Shown one piece after another: positions 4,764 through 50,298 of a DNA stretch of 56,745 nt; position 1 is the first letter of the stretch, and each line of letters begins with the position of its first letter. The position numbers and the translations under genes are program-made. The stretch covers positions 1-56,745 of IMG/VR virus record IMGVR_UViG_3300010400_000008. One strand, written 5' to 3'. This DNA comes from a virus. Below the pieces are notes generated by a model. The model ran no database searches. It was not told the origin of the DNA and saw nothing but the letters and a program-made list of their open reading frames with translations.

Positions 4764-5180
4764 ATGGCGCTTTCCCCCGCCGACATTACCGCCTCCTTCT
4801 TCGCAGTCCTGAAGAGCAGTACCGCCGGCGCCGCCGTGCGCGCAGCCCTGGGCGCCCAGGGCGCAAGCGTCATCCCCGCCGACGACCTCAAGACCGCCGG
4901 CCTCGTCTTCCCGCTCGTCGCCCTGCGCGCCGGCCCCATCACCGGCGAGCGCTACCAGCCGCGCGCCTGTTTCTTCACCTGGTGGGTCTACGACGAGGCA
5001 ATCAAGCGCTTCACCCGCATCAATCAGATCTTGCCCCTGATCGAGGCGGCCTACACCGCCCACATCATCGCCTACGGCCGCACCGACCTCGCCGGCGGCA
5101 TCTCGCAGGAGATCCCCGAGGACCGCGCGCTGGGGCGGCCCACCCGATCGATCACCTTCACCTATACCACCCGCCGGTAA
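4764..5180 (+). CDS. Tail terminator / tail completion protein
   Basis: A 138-residue protein immediately before the tail tube gene, the position of the tail terminator (lambda gpU role: caps the tail tube and joins it to the head). The sequence shows an N-terminal helix (ASFFAVLKSSTAGAAVRAAL), beta strands with 'ACFFTWWVYDEA' and a C-terminal SITFTYTTRR strand, compatible with this fold. The assignment is by synteny and secondary-structure pattern. Confidence 0.6.
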   Translation: MALSPADITASFFAVLKSSTAGAAVRAALGAQGASVIPADDLKTAGLVFPLVALRAGPITGERYQPRACFFTWWVYDEAIKRFTRINQILPLIEAAYTAHIIAYGRTDLAGGISQEIPEDRALGRPTRSITFTYTTRR

Positions 5181-5265
5181 AGCGGAAAATCGAAAGCTGA
5201 AAGATGAAAACCTGGCTTTCGATCGCCCCTCGTCTTTCCGTTTTCAGCTTTCAGCTTTCAGCTTG
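5179..5265. repeat. Imperfect inverted repeat of GAAAGC units
   Basis: The gap between the tail terminator and tail tube genes contains 5191-5210 (GAAAGCTGAAAGATGAAAAC-type) and, about 30 bases on, its near-perfect inverted copy at 5240-5259 (GTTTTCAGCTTTCAGCTTTC). A related purine-rich run occurs at 2741-2772. It would form a long hairpin in RNA upstream of the most highly expressed tail gene; it may also be a host-type intergenic repeat. Confidence 0.7.
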
Positions 5266-5276
5266 AGGAGATCCCC

Positions 5277-6077
5277 ATGGCCGACCCCAATTTCTTTGGC
5301 TTCGACGCGACCGACGGCAAGGTGCAGCTGGCCAGCGCGGCCATCAGCTGTACCTTCACCGACACCGGCGATCTCGTCACCGCGAGCGCCCATGGCCTGG
5401 CCAACGGCACCGTTGTCGTGTTCCAGACCAAGGTCACGACCACGGGCCTGACGACGTTTGTCGAGTACTTCGTGATCAGCAGCACGACCAACACCTTCCA
5501 GATCGCCGCAACCTACGGCGGCAGCGCGGTCGCATTGACGACCGATGGCACCGGCACCTACAAGAGCATCGTCGAGGTCGATCTGCTGTTTCTGAATAAG
5601 GCCACGCCCAGCGCGGACAGCAAAGAGTTCACCTATGAGGGCGACGGCCTCACCCGCAAGCGCAAGAAAACCACCGGCTACCAGGTCGTGCTGGCGGCTG
5701 ACTGCCTGACCCAGGACGCGCGCGAAACGATCTACGCCAAGACGCCCATCACGACCGGCCTGCCGGCTGCCTACACCCGCGCGATCTACGAGGGCGACAC
5801 GACCGAGACCAACGGCGTCTCGTGTGGCATCTGGATCGAGGGCACCGCCACCAAGGTGGACGCCACGACCGGCATCGAGAGCCAGGTCACGACGCGGCGC
5901 TGGTGGCCCGTGGGGACACTCAGCTACGACGGCCCACCCGAGCAGCAGACCGCCGACAAGTTCGGCCTCGACCAGTACACCTTCACGGCCTCGAAAACAT
6001 CGGTGGATATCTGCGGCGGCGCGCTGCCCGCGACCATCCCCAGCGGCGGCGTGTTCCAGGTGTTCATGGAGAAGTAG
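5277..6077 (+). CDS. Major tail protein (tail tube) with inserted Ig-like domain
   Basis: A 266-residue protein with an excellent GAGGAG Shine-Dalgarno 7 bases before ATG. The C-terminal half (YEGDGLTRKRKKTTGYQVVL... FGLDQYTFTASKTSVDICGG) looks like a siphovirus tube protein. Residues about 20-95 form a beta-rich module (VTASAHGLANGTVVVF ... EYFVISSTTNTFQIAA) of the type inserted in many phage tail and fibre proteins. It precedes the chaperones and tape measure. High confidence from synteny. Confidence 0.75.
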   Translation: MADPNFFGFDATDGKVQLASAAISCTFTDTGDLVTASAHGLANGTVVVFQTKVTTTGLTTFVEYFVISSTTNTFQIAATYGGSAVALTTDGTGTYKSIVEVDLLFLNKATPSADSKEFTYEGDGLTRKRKKTTGYQVVLAADCLTQDARETIYAKTPITTGLPAAYTRAIYEGDTTETNGVSCGIWIEGTATKVDATTGIESQVTTRRWWPVGTLSYDGPPEQQTADKFGLDQYTFTASKTSVDICGGALPATIPSGGVFQVFMEK

Positions 6078-6097: not shown

Positions 6098-6125
6098 GAA
6101 AAGTGGACCAATTGGTCCACTTTTC
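6098..6125. terminator. 28-bp perfect palindrome, terminator or operator
   Basis: Centre TGGACCAATTGGTCCA with flanking A4/T4 tracts, in the gap between tail tube and chaperone genes; a half site TTGGTCCACTTT follows at 6131-6142. As RNA it gives an 11-bp stem, AATT loop and T4 tail, so it can act as a weak bidirectional terminator reducing expression after the tail tube gene. Close copies sit at 36497-36520 and 43464-43487, so a protein-binding role is equally possible. Confidence 0.55.
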
Positions 6126-25528: not shown

Positions 25529-25740
25529 GGTCTTTCCTCACTCTGTTTCAGCGCCGCCGCGATCTTGGGGTCGCCTTCCAGGTTTGGGCAGCAGCCTGCA
25601 TGGAGACGCATCGCAGACGGGCGATCGGTGGAGTCGGCCGCGCCATACAGATAGATATGCGCGCCAGTGATCGGGCGGCTGCACCAGTCGCACTGCCAGC
25701 GCTTGCGCGGTCGTCGCACACAACGGGCGGTGAGCGTCAC
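25525..25740 (-). CDS. Small zinc-finger protein
   Basis: A 71-residue protein. WQCDWCSRPITGAHIYLYG and HAGCCPNLEG supply Cys and His for one zinc site, with a basic N-terminus (RRPRKRW). Linked by ATGA overlaps on both sides to the zinc-ribbon protein and the large ParB-like gene. Probably nucleic acid or protein binding; no closer family. Confidence 0.55.
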   Translation of the reverse strand: MTLTARCVRRPRKRWQCDWCSRPITGAHIYLYGAADSTDRPSAMRLHAGCCPNLEGDPKIAAALKQSEERP

Positions 25741-28721
25741 CCCGCCACCTCCATCGCTTCCGCCAGCCGCGCCTGCGCGTCGCCGATCCGCCGCGCCAGA
25801 TCCTCGTAGGCGTCGGTCGGGATCGTCGTGTCGTCGGCGAGAAGGTCGAGCCGGCGCCGGCAGTCGGCCAGCAGGCTGCGCGGGGTTATGCCAGTGTGGC
25901 CCCGCGCGACCTGGCCCTCGGCGGTGTCCAGCATCGAGGCGATCGCCGCCAGCGGGTCGGCCTCCAGCTCCGCCAGCGTCGGCGGTAGGCCGTGCTCGCT
26001 CAGCTCGGCCGGCATGGGCGCGTAGGGGGCTGGCGTCGCCGCCAGGAGCACGGCCACATGCTGCGCCGCCTGCTGCATCTCGTCATAGCGAAACATCGTG
26101 CTGGCCGGCGCCCGCTGAAGCGTGGCCGACATCTGGCCCAGCCAGGCCGCCGCCGCCTCGCGCGGCGTGGGCGTGCCGCTCGCGAAGCGCCGCAAGGTCA
26201 TCGCCAACGAGTGGTACATGGCGAGCGCCTCGTCGTAGGTGTAGTTGCCCGTTGTGCCGTCCGCCCAGACGATGTAGTGCCATACCCCGTCATCGTTGAC
26301 GATCGGCGTGTGGTACTGCGCGCCCAGCTGCTCGCGCAGGTCGTGCTCCTCTTCTCGCGCCGCGCAGGCCCGACAGCGATCGGCTAATGTCCCGCCGATG
26401 TTGTGGCGACCCACGCTCAGGTTGCCGCACGCGCACACCGGCGCCGCGCGCGCCGCATCCAGCCCGGCGAGATAGCCCAGCTCGTTCAGTGACATGTCGC
26501 CCGGCAGGATCTCTCCATCGCGCAGCCAGTTCGCGCCGCTCCAGTCGTAGCCCGCCAGCCACAGCGCGTCGATCAGGTCGTCGGGCGCATCGGGTAGGTC
26601 ATCTTCGTAGAGCCGCGCGCGCCAGGCGAGCAGCGCCAGGTGGGCGAGGTCAGACGCCGCGATCGCCTCGAACTCGTCATGGATCGCCGTGTAGGCGTGG
26701 AGGCCCGCCGGGCAGTCCGGGACGTAGATCACGCGCCAGGCGTGGTCAGTCAGCTCAGCCAGCGGGCGCGCCAGCTGTGTGGCCTCTGCAATCAGCGCGG
26801 CCGGGTCGTCGCCGCTGAGGGCCAGGCCGCAGGCGTGGCGCATGCCGATCGTGGTGTCGCCGTCGTTCCGCCAGATGGTCCAGCCGGCGGGGGCCGTGGG
26901 CAGGGCGGGCGCAATCGGGGCGGCCGGCTGCTCGATCGCCTCCAGCCGGCTCAGCACACCGTGCCAGGTGGCATTGCCGATACCGGGATGCGGCGCGGGC
27001 GGGTACATGGCGTAGCGATCGTCGGGATAGAAGCCGGGCTTGGTTACGCGCCAGCCGAGTGCTTGGAAGCGCGCCAGCACGGCATCAAAATCGGGCGGGA
27101 TGTCGCACGGCCAATCCCCGACCCCGGCGCGTGGTTGAGTCGTTGCCGCCGGCGGTCCATCCTCGCTCGCGCTGACCGCCGCTGCCAGCTCGTCGGGTGT
27201 GGCATCGGGCCGCTCGACGGCGAGTGCCGCCAGCGCGATCACGCCGGCGGCATCGGTGGCGTAGGCGTCGGCGCCCTTGGCCAGCCGGTACTCGGCGCCG
27301 GCGCGGCGTATCGTCCAGCCGCATGCCTCCAGTTGCCGCTCGGCTGCGACGGTGAGCCGGTGGGCAGCGGCGGCCGGCGCCCGCTGCTGTAGCTCCGCAT
27401 GGGTCTGCTCCTGCTTGTGCAACTCGATGCACAGCGACATCCAGCTGGCGACGTTTGCGACGCCGTTCAGGCCAGCATCGAGCAGGCTGTAGCCCTTCTC
27501 ATCCCGGCTGAGTGTCAGCCCGATCGCCTGCGCCCGTGCCTGCGCAGCGGCGTACTCGGCCGGCGTCGGCGCGTTTTTCGCGTTGCTTCGATCGCGGGCC
27601 TGCGCCTCGCTCTGCGCCGTCATCGTGGCGCTGGCGCAACGCGGGCAGAGCAGCTTGCCATCGATCTGCATCGAGCCTGGGGCGCCGTAGGGAGCGCCGC
27701 AGCCGCCTTCGCAGGAACGCGCCGGCGGCTCTATCGGCGGCACGCCGGGCAGGATTTTAATCCGCTGGTCGGTGATGACCAGTTCCTCGTTGCGATACCG
27801 CGCGAGGGTGCCAGGGCCGTTGCGCCCGTGCTTGGTCCAGGCCGCCACCTGACCAGGGTAGGCCGCACGCGACACCACCGCGCAGCCCTCAGCCGAGAGA
27901 AATGCCCCCGCCTTCGATAGCGAGGCGATACAGGCCCAGCGGCGGCCCGCGTAGTCGAACATGATAATCTTGCCCGTCTCGCTGTAGCTCATGGCCACAT
28001 TCTGCGCCGCAGCCCGATTGAGCAGGGAGGTGTCATGCACGATCAGCGGGTTCGGGATGGCAGTAGGGGCGGGGAATCCATCGGCGTGATTGACTGCGCC
28101 ACGCGCCTGATTCGCCGCCGCAATGCCGCTGGTGTCCATCGTGCGCCCATCGGCGGTCTTGCGCGCACTGGACGCGCGTCCAGTGCTCAGCCCGTGGCGC
28201 TCGGCGATCAACGCCACAAACACGTGGCTGACCTTGCAGCGCCGCGCGATCTCGCGGTCACTCCACTGCCCCCACTCCTCGTCTTGTAGTAGCACCAGCA
28301 CCGCGCGCTCCTTGTCGGCCCTGGTGCGCCTCAGGCCGTGATCGGCATTGGCGCCGGCGGCGTAGAGTACCGCGTCGCGCCGCGTGCCCTGGCGCACCTC
28401 GGCCCGGATCGCCGTTGGCGGCGCGGGGCGCTCCAGGGCTTGGAGCTGCGTGTAGGCCTCGAGACGGTGGAAGCCATCGGCCAGCCAGTAGGCCGATCCA
28501 TCGTGAAAGACCACGATCGGCGGGATGCGCTCCAGGCCGTTCTGGACGGAACACAGCTCGCGCATCGCCTCGACATACTCCGCAACGGCCGCCGGGTCGA
28601 GCCCGGCGCGGGCCTGCGTGCCGCCATCGATGCGGATGTGCTCCGGGCGGATAGCGGTGATCAGGGTGGCGGCCGGCGGGTCGGTGGTGGCAACGGCAGG
28701 TTCGATTAAGTCAGTGGTCAT
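25737..28721 (-). CDS. Large multidomain ParB/Srx-like protein
   Basis: Encodes 994 residues from the ATG at 28721 (GAGG 5 bases upstream). Residues about 25-115 resemble the ParB N-terminal domain (IRIDGGTQARAGLDPAAVAEYV; WLADGFHRLEAY). A helix-turn-helix follows near 155-180 (SDREIARRCKVSHVFVALIAE). Near residue 330 there is a C4 zinc site (CEGGCGAPYG ... CPRC). The remaining 650 residues show repeated small alpha/beta units (WTIRRAGAEYRLAKG; WTIWRNDGDTTIGMR). This is far longer than usual phage ParB-like proteins. It may act as a CTP/ATP-dependent DNA-binding protein or nuclease. Confidence 0.65.
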   Translation of the reverse strand: MTTDLIEPAVATTDPPAATLITAIRPEHIRIDGGTQARAGLDPAAVAEYVEAMRELCSVQNGLERIPPIVVFHDGSAYWLADGFHRLEAYTQLQALERPAPPTAIRAEVRQGTRRDAVLYAAGANADHGLRRTRADKERAVLVLLQDEEWGQWSDREIARRCKVSHVFVALIAERHGLSTGRASSARKTADGRTMDTSGIAAANQARGAVNHADGFPAPTAIPNPLIVHDTSLLNRAAAQNVAMSYSETGKIIMFDYAGRRWACIASLSKAGAFLSAEGCAVVSRAAYPGQVAAWTKHGRNGPGTLARYRNEELVITDQRIKILPGVPPIEPPARSCEGGCGAPYGAPGSMQIDGKLLCPRCASATMTAQSEAQARDRSNAKNAPTPAEYAAAQARAQAIGLTLSRDEKGYSLLDAGLNGVANVASWMSLCIELHKQEQTHAELQQRAPAAAAHRLTVAAERQLEACGWTIRRAGAEYRLAKGADAYATDAAGVIALAALAVERPDATPDELAAAVSASEDGPPAATTQPRAGVGDWPCDIPPDFDAVLARFQALGWRVTKPGFYPDDRYAMYPPAPHPGIGNATWHGVLSRLEAIEQPAAPIAPALPTAPAGWTIWRNDGDTTIGMRHACGLALSGDDPAALIAEATQLARPLAELTDHAWRVIYVPDCPAGLHAYTAIHDEFEAIAASDLAHLALLAWRARLYEDDLPDAPDDLIDALWLAGYDWSGANWLRDGEILPGDMSLNELGYLAGLDAARAAPVCACGNLSVGRHNIGGTLADRCRACAAREEEHDLREQLGAQYHTPIVNDDGVWHYIVWADGTTGNYTYDEALAMYHSLAMTLRRFASGTPTPREAAAAWLGQMSATLQRAPASTMFRYDEMQQAAQHVAVLLAATPAPYAPMPAELSEHGLPPTLAELEADPLAAIASMLDTAEGQVARGHTGITPRSLLADCRRRLDLLADDTTIPTDAYEDLARRIGDAQARLAEAMEVAG
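28165..28188. repeat. Palindrome copy inside the ParB-like gene
   Basis: Contains CACTGGACGCGCGTCCAGTG (28166-28185, perfect 20-bp palindrome). Twenty-four bases here are identical to 41806-41829 in the early-gene region, where the palindrome extends to 28 bp. Within the gene it codes for the segment just after the HTH. A candidate binding site for the protein encoded here. Confidence 0.7.
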
Positions 28722-29560
28722 ACAAACCTCGTCTGGTGCTGGCCGGCTGCTGCGGCGTTCAGCCACAGCACCTCGGTGCGCGTATTGCCTTTCTCCGCTT
28801 GCGTTTCGATTTCGCGCGTCTGCCAGTGGCTGAGCCGCGCGGCGTACAGGTCATTGTGGTAGCCCGAGAGCAGCACCGGGCCGGGATGGGCATCCAGTGC
28901 GTCGCATAGGGCCAGGTGATCGGCGTCGGTCATCTCGTGGCGATAGAGCTTCTTCCGGTGGCCGTGGTCGGTGTGGCGCACGTAGGGCGGGTCGGCGTAG
29001 ATCAGCGTCTCTTTGGTTGCGTACCGACCGATCACGGTGAGCGCGGGCAGACACTCGATCTCGGCGTCTTTGAGGAGCGCTGCGGCAATGGCCAGGCGTT
29101 CGGGAAGATCTGCCCAGGTCTCGTAGGTGTCGGCCAGCTGGCGCGCCGTCGCTTTATGGCTTTTGTGGCGCCAGCCATTGCGCGTGCAGATCGTCGTCCC
29201 GTGCGCCTGCCAGGTGGCGACCAGGAAGCGGCGCGCGTCTTCAACGAGGTCGCCACTCTCGACGATCGCGCCCGCCGGGCCGCTCACCGCCAGGTACTCG
29301 GCACGTGACCAGGGCGTGAACGCAACGGCGCGAATGAGATCTGTCTGGCGCTCCCGCAGCGCGCGAAAAAACAAATTGATATAGCAGTCGCGATCGTTCA
29401 GCACCAGGTGGCGCGGCCGATACCACAGATTAAGCGCGAACGCGCCCGAGCCGCAGTACGCATCGACGACCCGCATGCACTGTGGCACGTGGGATTGCAG
29501 CCAGTCGGCCAGGCGCCACTTCGCACCGGGATACTTCAGGATGGCGTCAACAGTGCTCAT
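28718..29560 (-). CDS. dam: DNA adenine methylase (Dam/D12 class)
   Basis: Encodes 280 residues from the ATG at 29560, coupled by ATGA at both ends. Motif X-like KYPGAKW is at residues 9-15, the SAM-binding DAYCGSGAFALN at about 33-44, and catalytic DPPY at 190-193. These define the alpha-class N6-adenine methylases, many of which methylate GATC. Specificity is not proven. Its operon includes the replication genes and the origin there is packed with GATC, so methylation control or protection of the origin is plausible. Confidence 0.88.
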   Translation of the reverse strand: MSTVDAILKYPGAKWRLADWLQSHVPQCMRVVDAYCGSGAFALNLWYRPRHLVLNDRDCYINLFFRALRERQTDLIRAVAFTPWSRAEYLAVSGPAGAIVESGDLVEDARRFLVATWQAHGTTICTRNGWRHKSHKATARQLADTYETWADLPERLAIAAALLKDAEIECLPALTVIGRYATKETLIYADPPYVRHTDHGHRKKLYRHEMTDADHLALCDALDAHPGPVLLSGYHNDLYAARLSHWQTREIETQAEKGNTRTEVLWLNAAAAGQHQTRFV

Positions 29561-29871
29561 AGCTCCAGCTCCAGTTGCCCGCTGTCGACGCGCTTCCGCC
29601 GGCGGGTCGCGGCGGCGTGCGTGGCATGCATTGCGGCGTCGTAGCGCAGGTGGCAAGCGCTGCACCAGCCGCGCAGGTTCTCCCGCCGGCAGTCGGCCGG
29701 GTCGTGATTGAGGTGGGCCACGCTCATCGTGCGCTTGTGTGTGTCGAAGGGCTCGTCGGGCGCGCGGCACTGCATGCCGCAGCTCTGGCAGATCCAGTTG
29801 GCCGCGACCTTGACCGCCAGCGCGATGGCGTCCCAGTCGGGCGGGTAGGCGGCTTTATCCTTGACCGGCAT
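29557..29871 (-). CDS. HNH-type endonuclease-like protein
   Basis: Encodes 104 residues from the ATG at 29871 (GGAGGG 8 bases upstream). CQSCGMQC then SVAHLNHDPADCRRENLRGW and CSACHLRYD give the HNH signature with zinc cysteines. It starts a 4-base overlap with the Dam gene, a pairing reminiscent of modification plus cleavage, but small HNH proteins next to methylases in phages can also be involved in packaging or recombination. Confidence 0.7.
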   Translation of the reverse strand: MPVKDKAAYPPDWDAIALAVKVAANWICQSCGMQCRAPDEPFDTHKRTMSVAHLNHDPADCRRENLRGWCSACHLRYDAAMHATHAAATRRRKRVDSGQLELEL

Positions 29872-30320: not shown

Positions 30321-30707
30321 CTACGCCGCCTGGGGCGTGGCCACGCCCCACAGCGAGAGCGAGAGCCGCAGCTGCGGCGTGATGGCCAGCGGCTGCCGCG
30401 TGGGCGCGGCCGGCGGGGCGGGCGTGTGGCCGACCGCCGCCTGAAGCGCCCGGAGGCGAGCGGCAAAGGCCGGATCGTCTCTGGCCAGGCGCCCACAGCG
30501 CTCGGTGTAATAACACACCGTCGTGTGGTCGCGTCCTAAGAGCAGGCCGATCTCGACCACGGTGTAGCCGTGGTCGCGCAAGATCGCCGTGATGGCGATG
30601 CGCGCCTGGGTGATACGGGCCCGGCGCCCGCGCCCGCTGCGCAGGTCGGCGACGGGCACGGCGAACAGCGCTGCGGCGGCGGTGATGACGGTGGCGGGGT
30701 CGATCAT
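30321..30707 (-). CDS. Stand-alone DnaA domain IV-like DNA-binding protein
   Basis: A 128-residue protein. Residues about 8-78 match the C-terminal DNA-binding domain of DnaA: ARITQARIAITAILRDHGYT, VVEIGLLLGRDHTTVCYYTE; RDHTTV is the DnaA signature contacting the DnaA box. Domains I-III (oligomerisation, ATPase) are absent. The tail is Pro/Ala-rich. It is coupled by ATGA to the helicase-loader gene. It might bind DnaA boxes in the phage or host origin, either recruiting or blocking initiation. Confidence 0.82.
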   Translation of the reverse strand: MIDPATVITAAAALFAVPVADLRSGRGRRARITQARIAITAILRDHGYTVVEIGLLLGRDHTTVCYYTERCGRLARDDPAFAARLRALQAAVGHTPAPPAAPTRQPLAITPQLRLSLSLWGVATPQAA

Positions 30708-31624
30708 GTCACCACCTCGTCGCGGTCCCAGGGGTCGAGCTCGTGGGCGATCGGCCGCACATCGGCGCCGCCCATCTCGACCAGGTGAAAGCGCCCATCG
30801 CGGATGCGGCTGGCCAGGAAGCTGGGGATGCGCGCCGCGCCATCCAGGTTGTAGCCGATGATCGTGCCGTACTGCGCCCGGCCCTGGTAGCGCGCCAGGA
30901 AGATGGCGTTCAGCACATCATCGACGAACGGGCTATCGCGGATCTTGTCCAGCTCATCGACCGCCAGGATCGGCGCTGCAATCAGGCGCCGCAGCCGCTC
31001 GCCATATAGCTCGGTGCCGATCGCGTCCCTGAGTTCGTTGAGCAGCTCGGGCATCATCACGTAGCGGCCGTAGATGCCCCGATCGGCCAGGTGGTTGAGC
31101 GCGGCGTAGATCAGCATCGTTTTGCCCACGCCATAGCCGCCGGCCAGGGTCAGCCAGCCGCGCGGCTGCACGATAAAGGCCCGAATCTTGGTACGGGCGG
31201 CGTCCTGCTCCGGCACGCGGCGGATGCGGCCGTTGGTCAAGCGCACGTCGTCGGCCTCCTCGGGCAGATTGCGCCATTTCTTCGCGCGCGCCTGGCCCGC
31301 CGCACAGGCGCAGGGGATGAGCGCCGGCGCATCGTCGCCATCGCCAAAGGTGTCCAGGATGACTAACCTATCGGCGCGCGCGGTGGCCTGCCGCTCCAGC
31401 AGGGTGCCGTGGCCGCTACACCGGCAGGTCGTCGTCGTCAAGCGGGCCGGCGGCTTCGATCTGGGCGAGCAGGGCGTCGTAGTCGACCGGGGCGGCGCTG
31501 CTGGCAGCTCGCGGCGGCCGATCATATCCACGACCACGTCGCCCATCGCCACCATGGGGGCGCTTGGGGGGTCGCTGATCATCAGCAGGTCGCTCGGGGC
31601 GATCCGCAGTATCTTGTTGTTCAT
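30704..31624 (-). CDS. DnaC/IstB-like AAA+ helicase loader
   Basis: Encodes 306 residues if started at the ATG at 31624. Cys pairs CRC and PCAC (about residues 67-106) form the zinc-type N-terminus common in phage DnaC proteins. Walker A GGYGVGKT is at 162-169, Walker B ILAVDELDK near 219-227. It should load the host DnaB helicase at the phage origin (lambda P role). The true start is uncertain: 31416-31624 is overlapped in another frame by the initiator C-terminus. The open frame extends further up to 32038 without a stop. Confidence 0.78.
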   Translation of the reverse strand: MNNKILRIAPSDLLMISDPPSAPMVAMGDVVVDMIGRRELPAAPPRSTTTPCSPRSKPPARLTTTTCRCSGHGTLLERQATARADRLVILDTFGDGDDAPALIPCACAAGQARAKKWRNLPEEADDVRLTNGRIRRVPEQDAARTKIRAFIVQPRGWLTLAGGYGVGKTMLIYAALNHLADRGIYGRYVMMPELLNELRDAIGTELYGERLRRLIAAPILAVDELDKIRDSPFVDDVLNAIFLARYQGRAQYGTIIGYNLDGAARIPSFLASRIRDGRFHLVEMGGADVRPIAHELDPWDRDEVVT

Positions 31625-32576
31625 GGCTTTGTCGTGCCTTTCTTCGTTCATAGGCCGGGGTGTCGCTGCCATAGCTGGCCGTGTCGCGCCAGCGATCGAG
31701 CGTCGATCGGATCGCCTTGACCGATCGGATGTCGCGCGAGATCGCCACCGCCAGAATCGCGCGGCCGACCCAGTAGAGGCCGTGGCCGCCGGTCGATTCG
31801 TTGTGTGCCAGCGCCATGGCGGCCAGCTGGCGCAGATCGAGCGGTCGCGGGTGCGGGCAGGCGTCGCGCCAGAGGTCGACCGGGTGCGCGGGCAGCGGCA
31901 GCTCCCCCTCGGGTGGCGGGGGCGGCGGAGCCGTGTTTGGTGGCAGGAGCTCCAGGGCCGCCTGCTGTTTTTTCGCGCGCGCGCGATCTCCTTCCTTCCT
32001 TCCTTCCTTCCTTCCTTCCAACGTGATCGATCGATCACGGTCGCCGTGATCCTTTGATAACGGTTGCCGTGATCGATCGATCACGGTGTCTGTGATCGAT
32101 CGATCACGGTCGCCGTGATCCTTTGATAACGGTTGCCGTGATCGATCGATCACGGTGAGATCCATCTCGGTTTGCAGTTCATGGCGTCCCGATGGCTTGC
32201 GCAAATTGCGTGTGCCGAGCTTGGCGAGATGCACCTGCGCGTCGCGATTCGAGGCGTCTAAAATCGATTCCCACGGGATTCGGTAGATCGGACGGTCAAA
32301 CTTGCCACCTTTGACCTCCTCGTACCCGACGATCTCGAGGAGATTCAGGGCGACCAGGTCGGTCAGCCAGCCCGTGACTCGGGGGTAGGCGCTGGTCCCC
32401 ATCTCGTCGGCGATCTCGCGGCTGCCGAACGCCGTGCGCTCGGTCAGGTCCATCAGTGCGCGGATCGCCAGCCAGCAGGCCAGCTGGTGCGGCGTGCAGC
32501 GCTTGCGCACCACGAACGGCACGCCGGTTTCGACCGCACGGTCCAGAATGTCACGGAGCATGCCGTGTGTTTTCAT
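31416..32576 (-). CDS. Replication initiator with internal origin (lambda O-like)
   Basis: Encodes 386 residues from the ATG at 32576. The N-terminal 130 residues are a winged helix (FVVRKRCTPHQLACWLAIRA; FGSREIADEMGTSAYPRVTG; LNLLEIVGYEEVKGGKF). Residues about 141-190 are encoded by the iteron array and contain two copies of a 23-residue repeat VIDRSRQPLSKDHGDRDRSI..., then EGRKEGRKEG encoded by the TTCC tract. A helical C-terminal domain (LRQLAAMALAHNESTGGHGL) probably binds the loader made from the next gene. Order initiator-origin-loader equals lambda O-ori-P. Confidence 0.78.
   Translation of the reverse strand: MKTHGMLRDILDRAVETGVPFVVRKRCTPHQLACWLAIRALMDLTERTAFGSREIADEMGTSAYPRVTGWLTDLVALNLLEIVGYEEVKGGKFDRPIYRIPWESILDASNRDAQVHLAKLGTRNLRKPSGRHELQTEMDLTVIDRSRQPLSKDHGDRDRSITDTVIDRSRQPLSKDHGDRDRSITLEGRKEGRKEGDRARAKKQQAALELLPPNTAPPPPPPEGELPLPAHPVDLWRDACPHPRPLDLRQLAAMALAHNESTGGHGLYWVGRAILAVAISRDIRSVKAIRSTLDRWRDTASYGSDTPAYERRKARQSHEQQDTADRPERPADDQRPPKRPHGGDGRRGRGYDRPPRAASSAAPVDYDALLAQIEAAGPLDDDDLPV
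31990..32019. repeat. Tetranucleotide tract (CCTT)7.5 within the initiator gene
   Basis: Seven and a half uninterrupted CCTT units (AAGG on the coding strand) next to the iterons. It codes for EGRK repeats in every frame. Such tracts change length by slippage. Loss of one unit (or gain of two) would move translation into the frame that is open from 32038 to the end of the loader gene at 30704. Confidence 0.95.
32022..32154. other. Replication origin: six iterons at 23-bp period
   Basis: Iterons of 18 bp start at 32022, 32045, 32068, 32091, 32114 and 32137. Four are the palindrome CGTGATCGATCGATCACG (first base T at 32091) and two are CGTGATCCTTTGATAACG, in order P-D-P-P-D-P, separated by 5-bp linkers. 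Each P holds three GATC sites and each D one, 14 in all. The site lies in the initiator gene as in lambda, so it is almost certainly the initiator-binding part of the origin. Confidence 0.88.
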
Positions 32577-32736
32577 AGGCGTCTCTCGGCTAGGCGCGGT
32601 CCTCGTGTGACAGCTTCTGCCACACAGGGGTGGTATACTACGGGTCCGCGTAGTCGCAGCCCGCATCTCGTAGCCAACGCGTTTTCCCAATCACCGCCAG
32701 GGCGAAGCGGTCGAGGCGCGCCCTGGCGGTGGTGAT
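32577..32736. promoter_or_regulatory. Leader region of the initiator gene with hairpin
   Basis: A 160-base gap. A 13-bp stem CACCGCCAGGGCG with its complement (32692-32731) can end transcription from 32737-33009 or shape the leader. Plus-strand TGGTATACT (32631-32639) is an extended -10 followed by a 6-bp stem; on the minus strand TAGTATACC is a weak -10 for the initiator gene. An inverted GTGTG/CACAC pair surrounds 32604-32625. Confidence 0.4.
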
Positions 32737-33009
32737 TCAGTGCCGCGATCCTGGCGGCTCGATGGTGAGATCCCCGGCATCGTAGATGACCTCCAGCCCA
32801 GCAAGCGACCGACCCGCCTCGGTGGGTGTCGGCGCGCCAGCCCAGCGCGGGATGAAGGGGTCGAGCTGGACTAAGACACCAGCCGGGCTGCCCCCGGCAG
32901 CGCCGGGGCGGGTATCGCCCGGCAACCGCGCTACCGGCAGTGCCACGGCCAGCACCTGGCCGGCTTTGCCACTCCACACGCATCGCACCCGATCGCCCGC
33001 GCTCAGCAT
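32737..33009 (-). CDS. Small SH3/KOW-like protein
   Basis: A 90-residue protein: GDRVRCVWSGKAGQVLAVAL and GVLVQLDPFIPRW then VIYDAGDLTIEPP, a beta pattern similar to KOW/SH3-like folds and to the phage protein at 42967-43323 (GDRVRVLRR). Possibly nucleic acid or ribosome associated. Followed by a strong hairpin. Confidence 0.5.
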   Translation of the reverse strand: MLSAGDRVRCVWSGKAGQVLAVALPVARLPGDTRPGAAGGSPAGVLVQLDPFIPRWAGAPTPTEAGRSLAGLEVIYDAGDLTIEPPGSRH

Positions 33010-33221
33010 GGTCGTTCTCCTCGCGCCCAGGCGCGCCGCGCCGCGTCGAGCAATCGCGCCAGATCGGCAGCGGCGACCGTGCGGTGTGTTACGGCGACCC
33101 CATGCCGGCGCTGCCAGGCCGCGACCGGGCAGCGGTACTGATGCCCGCCGTCGTCGGCGTCGAGACCGTCGCAGATGCAGCGCGCGACCAGCTCATCAGC
33201 GGTCAGCACCGGGCGGCTCAT
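33003..33221 (-). CDS. Small hypothetical protein
   Basis: Encodes 72 residues from the ATG at 33221, in ATGA overlap with the upstream gene. Contains ELVARCICDGLDADDGGHQYRCP, a possible C/H metal site, then a helix (AADLARLLDAARRAWARGE). It overlaps the next start by 7 bases. No family recognised. Confidence 0.5.
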   Translation of the reverse strand: MSRPVLTADELVARCICDGLDADDGGHQYRCPVAAWQRRHGVAVTHRTVAAADLARLLDAARRAWARGERPC

Positions 33222-33478
33222 GGCGCCACCTCGGCATCCTCCAGCGGATACATATGCACCTGCGGCGCGGCGGCGTCGAAGTCGGGATGCTGCCCACGCA
33301 CGCGCATGGACGAGTCGCACCAGTAGCACGTCGTCGAGACGCCAATGCCGAAGTCGAGCGGCGCATGCACGCTGAGATACTGCCGGCCGTTGGTCGGACA
33401 GGTAAATACGGTGTCGGCGTAGTCGCCGTCTGGACGCCGCGCGACCGTGGCGGTCGCAGCGCAGGCTAGATTTGCCAT
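33218..33478 (-). CDS. Small zinc-ribbon protein, first gene of the replication operon
   Basis: An 86-residue protein. CAATATV / FTCPTNG and CYWCDSSMRV provide four cysteines for a ribbon around YLSVHAPLDFG. GGGGAG lies 10 bases before the start. A minus-strand -10 candidate TATTCT (33496-33501) is close upstream, so operon transcription may begin here. Confidence 0.5.
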   Translation of the reverse strand: MANLACAATATVARRPDGDYADTVFTCPTNGRQYLSVHAPLDFGIGVSTTCYWCDSSMRVRGQHPDFDAAAPQVHMYPLEDAEVAP

Positions 33479-33830
33479 TTCATCGGTTCTCCCCTAGAAT
33501 AGGCGTGCGCCGGCGCAGTCTGGTCTTCCCCGCCGACGCATACCAAGGATTTCCGGTTCAATCGAGTTGCCCAGAGTAGCAGCCGAGCGGCGTTCACGCC
33601 GCTGCTCGGCTGTGTTCGTGGTGCGCGGCGTTCCTTGCCACGGCGACGCCGCGCACCCAGGTTCTTACCGTGCCCTGCCCCGGCCGGCGGACCGGGACCA
33701 ATCGCTGCATACGTATAGGCGCCTCCTTGCTCGTGGGCCGGGTCGCTCCCTGCGGCGGCCCGCGCGGCTGGGCTGTGCCCGGATTGCACAGCACAATCGC
33801 CCGTGTCGCCGTGTTAGCGAGGAGATTACG
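33479..33830. other. Intergenic region between replication operon and integrase
   Basis: About 350 bases with no credible gene. It holds a minus-strand -10-like TATTCT (33496-33501), a GCGCCGGCGC palindrome, and a large hairpin at 33580-33612 (CAGCCGAGC + GGCG, loop TTCA, GCT bulge). The last 20 bases contain GAGGAG, the Shine-Dalgarno of the integrase gene. No clear plus-strand promoter for the integrase was found. Confidence 0.5.
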
Positions 33831-34832
33831 GTGGATTACTACACAGGAGAGGTGTTCAAAGTCTCAACAATTCCTGGAGCTGATCGCGGGGCCGTTCACA
33901 TCCATGCAGCTGATGCAATGCAGCATCAGCAGACGACGAGGATGCCGTTGATGGATGTGGCCACGCTCCTGCCCCTCTGGCGCGCCGCGCTTGCCGCCGA
34001 CCACGCCGAGCGCACGGTGCGCTCCTACACCGACCATGTCATGGACTTCGTGCGCGGGCTCGGCCCGGCACCGACGATCGCCCAGATCACCCCGCCAGCG
34101 ATCGAGGCGTTTAAGACGCGGCTCGCACGCCGCTGTGTGCCCAGGACGATCGGGCTCGCGCTGACCGCCGTGCGCTCCTTCGTGCGCTGGCAGATTGCCA
34201 GTGAGCTGCGCGTCGACGACCCCACGCTCAAAGTGACCTTCCCCCGCCCCGGCAAATCACTGCCGCGCGCGCTCTCCGATGAGCAGGTGCGCGAGCTGAT
34301 GGGTGCGATCGCCCTGCCGGATGGGCTGCACCCCGCGCCGGCCTACCAGTGGCGGCGCAACCGGCTGGCGATCCTGCTCATGCTCTATGCGGGGCTCCGG
34401 ATCTCCGAGGCGGCGGATCTGCGCTGTCGTGATGTGTTCCTCGACCAGCGCAAGATCATCATTCGGGAGGCCAAGGGCGGCAAGGACCGCACGGTGCCGA
34501 TCCACGCTGTCCCCCTGGGGGAACTGCGACTCGCACTGGTCGATCGCCGGCCGAGTGACGCCGTCTGTGGCCACCCGACCGGCGATCCGCTGGCTAGGAA
34601 AAGTTTCCATCACGTGTTCGAGCGCTGGGTGCCGCGCCTGAACCTCTCATTCCACTTCACGCCGCACCAGCTGCGGCACACCTGCCTGACCAAGCTGATC
34701 GACACCGGCGCCAATGTGTTCGAGGCCCAGGAGATCGCCGGGCACGAAAGCCCCGAGACGACTCGGATTTACTACCGCCTCAGTGCCGAGCATCTCCGCG
34801 CGGCCATCGACCGGCTGCCAGTCACTTGGTAG
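33831..34832 (+). CDS. int: Tyrosine integrase
   Basis: Encodes 333 residues from a GTG with AGGAG 6 bases upstream. An N-terminal SAM-like core-binding domain (about 40-130) precedes the catalytic domain with R190 (AGLRISEAA), K near 215-218, HQLR at 279-282, H305 (GHES) and Y314/315 (RIYYRLS). All catalytic residues of the tyrosine recombinase family are present. The attP-like tRNA end lies 0.8 kb downstream. Main candidate for phage integration. Confidence 0.92.
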   Translation: MDYYTGEVFKVSTIPGADRGAVHIHAADAMQHQQTTRMPLMDVATLLPLWRAALAADHAERTVRSYTDHVMDFVRGLGPAPTIAQITPPAIEAFKTRLARRCVPRTIGLALTAVRSFVRWQIASELRVDDPTLKVTFPRPGKSLPRALSDEQVRELMGAIALPDGLHPAPAYQWRRNRLAILLMLYAGLRISEAADLRCRDVFLDQRKIIIREAKGGKDRTVPIHAVPLGELRLALVDRRPSDAVCGHPTGDPLARKSFHHVFERWVPRLNLSFHFTPHQLRHTCLTKLIDTGANVFEAQEIAGHESPETTRIYYRLSAEHLRAAIDRLPVTW

Positions 34833-41802: not shown

Positions 41803-41830
41803 CGAGCACTGGACGCGCGTCCAGTGCTCG
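41803..41830. promoter_or_regulatory. 28-bp perfect palindrome
   Basis: Core CACTGGACGCGCGTCCAGTG with CGAG/CTCG flanks; perfect dyad in a 70-base gap between early genes. It shares 24 bases with 28165-28188 in the ParB-like gene. Candidate operator or ParB-type centromere-like site. A hairpin terminator role is less likely because no T-tract follows. Confidence 0.65.
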
Positions 41831-43463: not shown

Positions 43464-43487
43464 AAACTGGACCAATTGGTCCAGTTT
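43464..43487. terminator. 24-bp perfect copy of the TGGACCAATTGGTCCA palindrome
   Basis: AAACTGGACCAATTGGTCCA plus GTTT, centred 87 bases upstream of the second recombinase gene. As RNA, a 10-bp stem with AATT loop and GTTTTA. See 6098-6125 and 36497-36520. Confidence 0.6.
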
Positions 43488-43561: not shown

Positions 43562-44596
43562 ATGGAAAATAGGTATCGAAAAGTCCGCTTTAAACTAGCT
43601 ATTTCTCCCATGCCACCCCTCGATCCTCCAGAGGCGGCGCCGCTGGTCGCAGTATCACCCGGTGATATCACACGGCGCCTCGACGAGCACCCCGCCGCCG
43701 TCTATCTCGCGCAGCTCACCACGCGCAGCCGCCGCACCCAGGCCTCCGCCCTCGACCAGGTGGCGCAGCTGCTGGGCTATGGGAGTGCCCTGGCGTGCCC
43801 GTGGCACCAGCTCAGCTACGCCCACACCGCAGCACTCCGCACCGCCCTGGCTGAGCGCTACGCCCCGGCCACGGCCAACCGCATGCTGGCAGCGCTCCGG
43901 CGGGTGTTGCAGGAGTGCTGGCGCCTGGGGCTGATGACGGTGGAGGCGTATGAGCGCGCCGCCGATCTGAAGGTCGTGAAAGAGGAGAAGCTGCCGAGTG
44001 GCCGCGCGCTCGATCCGTCCGAGGTGGCGGCGCTCTTTGCGGTGTGCGCGGGCGACTCGACCCCGGCCGGCGTGCGCGACGGCGCCTTGCTCGCGCTGCT
44101 GCTGGCGACCGGCCTGCGGCGCTCCGAGGCCGTGGCACTCGACCTGGCCGACTACACGCCCGCCAGCGGCGCGCTGAAGGTCCGCTCGGGGAAGGGTCGC
44201 AAGGATCGCCTGGTCTACGTCGGCGCGGCGGTGGCCGTGCTGGCATTGGCCGACTACCTGACGATCCGCGGGGCCTGGCCAGGGCCGCTGTTCGTCGCCG
44301 GGCGGCGCGGTGGGCATCTCCTGACCAGCCGTATGACTGATCAGTCGATCGCGCTCATCCTCGCACGTCGCGCCGCCCAGGCAGGTATCGCCGACGTATC
44401 ACCCCACGATCTGCGCCGCACCTTCGTGACCAATCTCCTGGACGCCGGCGCCGATATCGCGACCGTGCAGAAGCTGGCCGGGCACGCCGATCCCGCGACC
44501 ACGGCGCGCTACGACCGGCGTGGCGAGCAGGCAAAGCACGACGCGGCGGCGCTGCTCGATCTGCCGCCGATCCGGCGCACGCTGCCGCTGGACTAG
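43562..44596 (+). CDS. Second tyrosine recombinase
   Basis: A 344-residue protein (or 328 from the Met at residue 17, 43610). N-terminal core-binding domain with 'AALRTALAERYAPATANRML', then catalytic residues R186 (ATGLRRSEA), K near 211-214 (GKGRKDR), HDLR at 282-285, H308 (GHADP) and Y317 (ARYDRRG). XerC/D-like in style and unlike 33831-34832. Could resolve genome multimers, act as a second integrase, or act at the adjacent palindromes. The start has only a weak ribosome site. Confidence 0.9.
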   Translation: MENRYRKVRFKLAISPMPPLDPPEAAPLVAVSPGDITRRLDEHPAAVYLAQLTTRSRRTQASALDQVAQLLGYGSALACPWHQLSYAHTAALRTALAERYAPATANRMLAALRRVLQECWRLGLMTVEAYERAADLKVVKEEKLPSGRALDPSEVAALFAVCAGDSTPAGVRDGALLALLLATGLRRSEAVALDLADYTPASGALKVRSGKGRKDRLVYVGAAVAVLALADYLTIRGAWPGPLFVAGRRGGHLLTSRMTDQSIALILARRAAQAGIADVSPHDLRRTFVTNLLDAGADIATVQKLAGHADPATTARYDRRGEQAKHDAAALLDLPPIRRTLPLD

Positions 44597-45889: not shown

Positions 45890-45964
45890 TGCGGTGTGGG
45901 GGAACGGTACCCCGTTGGGCTCATAACCCAAAGATAGCGAGTTCAACTCTCGCCACCGCTCCCA
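45890..45964 (+). tRNA. Initiator-type tRNA-Met (CAT)
   Basis: Cloverleaf: acceptor TGCGGTG/CACCGCT with an unpaired T1:T72, D arm GGGG-AACGGTA-CCCC, anticodon arm TTGGG-CTCATAA-CCCAA, variable AGATA, T arm GCGAG-TTCAACT-CTCGC, discriminator C and encoded CCA. The mismatch at 1:72 and three consecutive G:C pairs under the anticodon loop are the hallmarks of initiator tRNA-fMet, not elongator Met or Ile2. It follows a small gene and precedes a strong terminator. Confidence 0.88.
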
Positions 45965-47940: not shown

Positions 47941-48692
47941 TGCCGACGATCGACCGCACCACCTATCAAAAGGCTACGCGGCCGATTGGCTCGGGCTACG
48001 ACCGCCGTGTGAAGGGCGTGACGCCGCGCAAGCTGGTTATCCACACGACCAACGGCAATCGCGGCAGCAGCTTCGCGGCCGAGTGCCGCTACTGCGTCAA
48101 CAGCAACGCGATCGGCATCCACTATGAGATCGGCAAGGAGGGCCAGATCGTCGAGCAGCTCGATCCCATGTGGCGTGCCTGGCACGTCGGCCGCAGTCTG
48201 CCGGGCTGGGGCAACAACGACGCGATCGGCGTCGAGTGCCATCACGCCGTTGGTGAGGCCTGGACACCCGCGCAGCACGATGCGCTCACCTGGCTGACCA
48301 AGGAGCACCTGATGCCGCGCTACGGCATCACGCCCGCCGCTATCGACACCCACCGCGCGGTGGCGCTGCCCCACGGCCGCAAAGTCGATCCGAGCGACTG
48401 GTCCGATGCATGGTTCTACGCCTGGCGCGCGGCGCTCAGTGGCCTGGCCTATGTGCCGCAGCCCGCGCGCCTGGCCAGCTACATCACCACGACCGCCGTC
48501 AACGTGCGGCAGGGGCCGAGCCGCGCGAAACCGATCGCCTTGGATGGCCATTGCGTGTTAGCGAAAGATTTTGCGTTCCAGAGCGATGTGACGGTGCAGG
48601 GCGAGGCGATCGGCGGCAACGGCACATGGGTGCATCTGGTCGTCCCGGCCGCCTGGGGCTTCGTGCATAGCTCGTGTGTGAGGCGGGTATGA
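47940..48692 (+). CDS. Endolysin II: N-acetylmuramoyl-L-alanine amidase with SH3b
   Basis: A 250-residue protein. Amidase_2/PGRP-type domain with LVIHTTNG (first zinc His, residue 35), IGIHYEIGKEGQIVEQ, NDAIGVECHH, and DTHRAVALPHGRKVDPSDW. Residues about 185-250 are an SH3b wall-binding domain (TAVNVRQGPSRAKPIALDGH). It overlaps the glucosaminidase stop by one base (TGATG). Two enzymes cutting glycan and stem peptide act together. Confidence 0.88.
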   Translation: MPTIDRTTYQKATRPIGSGYDRRVKGVTPRKLVIHTTNGNRGSSFAAECRYCVNSNAIGIHYEIGKEGQIVEQLDPMWRAWHVGRSLPGWGNNDAIGVECHHAVGEAWTPAQHDALTWLTKEHLMPRYGITPAAIDTHRAVALPHGRKVDPSDWSDAWFYAWRAALSGLAYVPQPARLASYITTTAVNVRQGPSRAKPIALDGHCVLAKDFAFQSDVTVQGEAIGGNGTWVHLVVPAAWGFVHSSCVRRV

Positions 48693-49575: not shown

Positions 49576-50298
49576 ATGTCCTACACCCTCTATCACGGAG
49601 ACGCCCTGGCGCGACTCCGGACGCTCCCCGACGCGAGCATCGACGCGGTGATTGCCGATGAGCCGTATTCGAGCGGCGGCACGTCGAGCCGCGAGCGGAT
49701 CAGCCGCAGTCCGCGCGATAAGTACCAAACGAGCGGCACCGAACGCACCTATCCAACCTTTTACGGCGAGCACCGCGACCAACGCTCCTTTGGCTACTGG
49801 TGCGCGCTCTGGCTGGCCGAGTGCCTACGCATTGCCCAGCCCGGCGCGCCGATCTGCGTCTTTTCAGACTGGCGGCAGCTGCCCACCGCCACCGACGCGT
49901 TGCAGGCCGGTGGCTGGCGCTGGCAGGGCATCGTTCCGTGGAACAAGCCCAGCGCCCGGCCGCATCTCGGCCGCTTTACCAATCAGTGTGAGTACGTCAT
50001 CTGGGGCAGTAACGGCCCGCTGGGCGAGCGGCCAGGCATCGGCGTGCTGCCGGGCCTGATCACCGTCCCAGTCGTGGCGAGAGACAAGTTTCATCTGACC
50101 GGCAAGCCGATCGCGGTGATGGAGCAGCTCGTGCGCATCTGCGCCCCCGGCGGTACCATCCTCGACCCGTTTATGGGCAGCGGCTCGACCGGGGTGGCGG
50201 CGCTCAAACACGGCTATCGCTTCATCGGTATCGAGCAGTCGGCCGAATATATTGCCATTGCCCAAGAGCGGCTAGAGGATGCGCTGCAGAACCCATGA
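49576..50298 (+). CDS. DNA N6/N4 methyltransferase (beta class), DEPY variant
   Basis: A 240-residue protein. Motif IV ADEPYSSGG (DEPY, residues 28-31) precedes motif I DPFMGSGSTG (197-206), the beta-class order. The usual DPPY is changed to DEPY, also seen in some phage methylases; activity must be tested. PWNKPSARP and FTNQCEYVIWG are typical conserved segments. No restriction partner is adjacent, so it is an orphan protecting phage DNA. Confidence 0.82.
   Translation: MSYTLYHGDALARLRTLPDASIDAVIADEPYSSGGTSSRERISRSPRDKYQTSGTERTYPTFYGEHRDQRSFGYWCALWLAECLRIAQPGAPICVFSDWRQLPTATDALQAGGWRWQGIVPWNKPSARPHLGRFTNQCEYVIWGSNGPLGERPGIGVLPGLITVPVVARDKFHLTGKPIAVMEQLVRICAPGGTILDPFMGSGSTGVAALKHGYRFIGIEQSAEYIAIAQERLEDALQNP

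Follow-up and report, generated by a model that had tools for sequence, protein, structure and literature searches.

The six tandem iterons at positions 32022 to 32154 very probably form a phage replication origin that follows the lambda O-ori-P plan and lies inside the gene of its own initiator. Self-coded iterons of this kind are textbook knowledge for lambda. The window is the whole 56,745-nt stretch of viral DNA analysed (56.7 kb). The proposal is built on the array, on a constraint acting at the level of DNA, on an adjoining weak tract, on the loader gene, and on a layout found again in a homologue and among other O-like initiators. The initial annotation had suggested an origin within the initiator gene with the anatomy of lambda O-ori-P, and this interpretation is supported. 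The array lies in coding sequence about 420 bp inside the gene, its inverted half-sites are about one helical turn apart, a strand-asymmetric weak tract adjoins it downstream, and the next gene encodes a DnaC-like loader. The relevant features are listed below, with minus denoting the gene strand.

32022 to 32154, minus: six-iteron array, 23-bp period, consensus CGTKATC-N4-GATCACR.
32022 to 32090, no strand assigned: first P-D-P triplet, 69 bp, 66/69 identical to 32091-32159, TRF period 69.
32091 to 32159, no strand assigned: second P-D-P triplet, 69 bp, TRF period 69.
32045 to 32062, minus: D iteron with variant half CGTTATC, core AAAG and half CGTGATC.
32114 to 32131, minus: D iteron, second copy.
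31987 to 32019, minus: purine run of 33 nt, (GGAA)7-type, abutting the array; candidate unwinding region.
31974 to 31985, no strand assigned: (CG)6, the longest alternating C-G tract of the window, followed by A6 on the gene strand.
31985 to 32024, no strand assigned: least stable 40-mer in the coding part of the initiator, at the array end.
31416 to 32576, minus: initiator open reading frame, with a predicted N-terminal DNA-binding region (about residues 1-140), an iteron-coded linker (141-185) and a C-terminal part.
30704 to 31624 (exact start uncertain), minus: next gene, DnaC/DnaI-like AAA+ helicase loader, phrog_50 E 4.9e-18.
30321 to 30707, minus: stand-alone DnaA domain-IV protein with a GRDHTTV motif, Pfam Bac_DnaA_C E 2.2e-9, PDB 3pvp E 3e-5.

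The 18-bp units start at 32022, 32045, 32068, 32091, 32114 and 32137, which confirms the exact 23-bp step reported initially. Three copies of the palindromic unit P (32022, 32068 and 32137) match its sequence perfectly, and the copy at 32091 has a single mismatch (T for C at base 1). Both copies of unit D (32045 and 32114) are perfect matches. No further copies of P or D with up to three mismatches occur elsewhere in the 56.7-kb window, where shuffling predicts 0.06 and 0.03, respectively. The order P-D-P-P-D-P was correctly described. TRF recovers both a 23-bp array of 5.9 copies and a 69-bp array of 2 copies, hence the apparently symmetric order is a duplicated P-D-P triplet. The array can also be described as 12 inverted half-sites spaced 11 and 12 bp in alternation, with half-site centres 11 bp apart within a unit, as in lambda. 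GATC occurs 14 times in the 133 bp of the array, the highest density in the window, and at least once in every unit. The initial annotation regarded D as a second, non-palindromic iteron type and suggested two proteins or two binding modes. D instead retains the inverted half-site pair of P, with one base altered in one half and a different 4-bp core, and is self-complementary at 12/18 positions. Judged by sequence, P and D represent a single iteron whose half-sites are putatively strong or weak, D being interpreted as the weaker form of the site in P. Because the half-sites are common to both units, two proteins or two binding modes are unsupported.

Nowhere else in the window does a purine or pyrimidine run reach the 33 nt of the purine run next to the array, the runner-up being 19 nt. 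The least stable 40-mer in the coding part of the initiator begins 2 nt ahead of the array end on the gene-downstream side; counting the 75 doubtful residues that end the reading frame brings in a marginally weaker 40-mer at the far end of the frame. Among 200-bp stretches, the one at 31984 is the fifth least stable in the window. The adjoining tract has 52% GC versus 65% for the gene, and lambda is more extreme with 22% versus 48%. The same script applied to positive controls placed the least stable 40-mer 15 nt (lambda O) and 10 nt (P22 18) from the repeat end. GC skew in the window does not change sign cleanly at the array and is uninformative. The simple repeats beside the array could have arisen by slippage.

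For the initiator, the winged helix proposed initially is weakly favoured by the similarity of its profile to that of HTH_36 initiators (hhalign single-pair E 0.008, probability 4.9%), but not by searches of Pfam and PHROG, which produced no significant family match, O-like families included, nor by AF2 models built with no alignment, which were too poor for use (pLDDT 41 and 52). Protein scans of viral_contigs, phages and plasmids recovered no close relatives of the initiator. Near 31655 the coding signal departs from the initiator frame, which makes the final 75 residues of this reading frame doubtful. Across the initiator-loader junction (31655-31416), the coding signal switches frame about three times (0 to 1 near 31655, back near 31510 and again near 31430), possibly reflecting an overlapping gene or an assembly indel. 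The phrog_50 match bears out the earlier description of the next gene as a DnaC-like loader. The loader also matches NCBIfam DnaI with E 1.7e-11, below cutoff, and has no close relative by protein scan in viral_contigs, phages, plasmids or genome_contigs. The DnaA domain-IV gene overlaps the end of the loader gene within the phage replication operon, and its GRDHTTV sequence is the box-binding motif. The encoded protein is a possible accessory factor; scans of viral_contigs, phages and plasmids revealed no close relative. Among terminase relatives of the phage, whose sequences were recovered in large part, none carries this replication module. One of them (G002) has a DnaB-like helicase gene at the corresponding place instead.

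Several other features of the window were recorded. The phage genome encodes two tyrosine integrases (33567-34832 and 43562-44596), the second of which is present in the relatives L020 and L021 at 63-70%. ARAGORN predicts tRNA-Met(cat) at 45890-45964 and tRNA-Arg(ccg) at 48353-48433, and Rfam backs only the former. A second DNA methyltransferase is encoded at 49576-50298, with CcrM-type matches below cutoff. At 25737-29770, a 1009-aa ParB-like protein lies beside a D12 adenine methyltransferase. Genes of these two kinds are also adjacent in phage PV036457, the ParB-like one directly preceding the D12 methyltransferase, which suggests a methylation-linked pair. Four perfect palindromes of 22-28 bp (6098-6125, 43464-43487, 41803-41830 and 28165-28186) have TGGAC...GTCCA halves in common around two core types, CAATTG and GCGC, and one of them is inside the ParB-like gene. 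These palindromes are a candidate family of operators or ParB sites.

The half-sites recur in other viral initiators. Searching 2.9 million viral contigs (viral_contigs) with the pattern GTGATCN4GATMAC-N3..12-GTKATCN4GATMAC retrieved four loci (L035, L036, L037 and L038), and all are arrays within initiator-type reading frames. A stricter pattern based on P only had no matches. A 512-kb contig with GATCGATCGATC repeats (L028) was also considered and looks unrelated. Three of the loci (L035, L036 and L038) encode HTH_36 proteins matching PHROG replication-initiation families, with the word GTGATC-N4-GATCAC. The L035 iterons (5110-5280) belong to a low-GC phage initiator and have DnaA boxes of the TTATCCACA type on their flanks. 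The L037 initiator is a true homologue of the window initiator (54% identity, E 3.4e-54) and was found only via the iteron DNA pattern. A terminase relative of this phage comes from the metagenome that also contains L037. The L037 array consists of seven iterons at 22-24 bp steps with the half-sites of the window, different cores and a different unit order. The 26 half-sites of the two phages comprise 18 CGTGATC, 2 TGTGATC, 4 CGTTACC and 2 CGTTATC, and the cores are GATC, GAAG/CTTC and AAAG. The L037 array is followed by (GGAT)n, TTGGATGGATGGAT, the equivalent in the window being (GGAA)n, TTGGAAGGAAGGAA; the tract after the L037 array reads TTGGATGGATGGATGGATGG and its counterpart in the window TTGGAAGGAAGGAAGG. 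L037 is readable only to 48 nt past the start of this tract, short of the loader and of the C-terminal part of the initiator. As L037 shares the half-sites and the type of adjoining tract and differs in the cores, the former are preserved while the intervening sequence drifts. The presence of two half-site grades in L037 as well makes a strong/weak distinction plausible, and such a distinction may matter for cooperative loading.

A broader set of initiators was assembled from phages and plasmids as relatives of the L038 initiator, chosen by protein similarity and blind to repeats. Most have a linker with repeated words, and the repeats end at about 30-60% of the gene. Clear inverted half-sites are found in several, with words mostly unlike GATC, including AGCACG and GATGCC in Deinococcus plasmids, CGGCTA in Thermaerobacter and ACACCC in Nostoc. 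Of 15 untruncated initiator genes, counting those of lambda and P22, 11 have their least stable 40-mer between -2 and +44 nt from the array end, although these do not represent 15 independent tests because several are related to each other. The exceptions are L035, L054, L059 and L060, where the weakest 40-mer lies away from the array end. By a crude count, codon shuffles come close to the repeat numbers of lambda, L059 and L060.

A repeat inside a coding sequence might be a matter of the protein only, that is, a low-complexity linker grown by slippage and duplication with no role for the DNA. The 69-bp duplication, the (GGAA)7 and (CG)6 tracts alongside and the generally poor constraint on linkers are in line with such a history. 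Yet, as 23 is not divisible by 3, the units occupy three codon phases (2, 1, 0, 2, 1, 0), and a unit read in three phases is not selectable as a peptide. Identical 18-mers encode peptides as different as TVIDRSR and RDRSIT. The duplicated peptide repeat noted initially does exist, but only as two copies of 23 aa, since 69 bp are needed to fit three 23-bp units; the repeat at the level of the unit is one of DNA. Duplication alone accounts for the second triplet, but leaves the repetition in three phases inside a triplet unexplained. Among 20,000 synonymous recodings that preserved the peptide and followed phage codon usage, none reached the observed 23-bp autocorrelation (0.79 versus a mean of 0.42) and none reached 14 GATC. 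The array uses rare codons (TTA 1%, TCA 5%, CGA 7%, CGT 7%), and its codon adaptation is in the lowest 1.4% among 45-codon windows. The use of all three codon phases together with rare codons indicates that the array is maintained as DNA rather than as peptide. The half-sites are also kept in the 54%-identical homologue despite a different linker peptide and different cores, and other initiators have arrays at the same place. A purely protein-level explanation is very unlikely. Regulation of replication-operon transcription by the initiator or a repressor bound to the array, rather than replication start, is less likely still. Perfect palindromes such as those in the array are typical of operators, and initiators often autoregulate. 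However, the array lies deep in the gene, a sigma-70-like search of 31300-33700 gave a single candidate at 33472 and none near the array, and the weak tract and the layout match origins.

In the fold of each P-D-P triplet, the two P units pair over 18 bp and enclose a hairpin formed by D (-56 kcal/mol, z -11 versus shuffles), and single-stranded hairpins of this kind might serve as a priming or primosome-loading site. Such a fold is, however, expected of any array of near-palindromes, and the seven copies of L037, in another order, do not preserve the triplet, making this function highly improbable. The least credible proposal is a centromere of the parS or sopC type. The F sopC site is an array of inverted repeats, and the ParB-like protein (25737-28766) matches phrog_1033 in its N-terminal part (E 8e-21). 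Against this, an unsystematic look at the products examined noticed no ParA-like partner, the pairing with a D12 methyltransferase in PV036457 suggests a link to methylation, and the array half-sites accompany the initiator homologue in L037. Two elaborations of the origin itself deserve more weight, and both are unlikely. In the better of the two, the GATC-rich iterons would make initiation dependent on adenine methylation, in parallel with Vibrio ori2 (PMC6090056) and in agreement with the window's densest cluster of GATC. However, the recognition hairpin sequence of Dam is missing from the D12 methyltransferase of the phage (RYNLRGEFNVPFG aligns to RNGWRHKSH...), whose score of 55 bits is under the Dam family cutoff of 115 bits, and half-site words elsewhere in the family mostly do not contain GATC. 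Control by a phage Dam is unsupported. The other elaboration, marginally more doubtful, has the pattern of strong CGTGATC and weak CGTTAYC half-sites, kept in the homologue, read by two factors, the initiator and the stand-alone DnaA domain-IV protein, the latter as a built-in second regulator. If true, this would be a phage origin with a second regulator encoded in the same operon. The first half of a DnaA box had initially been read on the reverse strand of D, but D matches TTATCCACA at only 6/9 positions and no box with up to one mismatch is found in the array. Over the whole window the count is 19 versus 14.6 expected, with no clear excess.

For the lambda-type origin, we infer that the initiator binds the iterons, that the DNA unwinds at the adjoining tract and that the loader is then recruited. 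The N-terminal domain of the initiator (32576-31416, minus) would bind the six iterons of its own gene as dimers on CGTKATC-N4-GATCACR, the 11-bp spacing of half-site centres being suited to a dimer on one helix face. Dimers on units 23 bp apart would assemble into a wrapped complex, which would unwind the purine-rich weak stretch at 31985-32024. The C-terminal part of the initiator would recruit the DnaC-like loader (30704-31624), and the loader would place the replicative helicase. Sequence alone has thereby sufficed to place a probable replication origin in this uncultured temperate phage. More broadly, O-like/HTH_36 initiators encoded by phages and by plasmids of Nostoc, Deinococcus and Thermaerobacter repeat the lambda layout, in which a DNA-binding domain is followed by self-coded iterons and a weak tract at about 30-60% of the gene, and most of them have an iteron word of their own. 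This provides a simple rule for finding origins and for matching initiators to their DNA words.

Individual elements of this origin have counterparts in known systems. Six-iteron origins are already known in Stx-type phages (PMC7466680), and gene 18 of phage L contains six imprecise repeats of its own word, with words differing per phage (PMC8022706). Chromosome 2 of Vibrio has six 12-mers in ori2, each with a GATC and at 22-23 bp steps, bound by RctB in a methylation-dependent manner (PMC6090056). The window array resembles ori2 in its six GATC-containing units and their steps. However, the 12-mers of ori2 run head to tail, accompanied by a DnaA box and dependent on methylation, whereas the window has inverted-repeat palindromes within an initiator gene, no DnaA box in the array and no suitable Dam found. 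Literature searches on Dam and iteron phage origins and on phage DnaA domain IV yielded no precedent for this combination. HTH_36 and PHROG replication-initiation proteins of phages and plasmids (phrog_270, 8540, 391 and 678) have an N-terminal HTH, and they share with the window the linker-coded repeats and, in most, a weak tract after them. The window initiator falls under every family cutoff with a weak profile match, and the words differ in most members. In lambda and its kin (P22 gene 18, phage L gene 18 and lambdoid relatives with six iterons), the repeats also lie mid initiator gene at 20-24 bp steps (20/24/23 in lambda), a weak tract, purine-rich in lambda, follows on the gene-downstream side, and the next gene encodes the helicase or its loader. 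Compared to lambda, the array has another half-site word, perfect palindromes and an exact 23-bp period, the loader is of the DnaC/AAA+ type and not lambda P, and no sequence homology of the initiator to O-like families was detected. The lambda-type layout is already known; in this phage its architecture is clear and the array is unusually clean.
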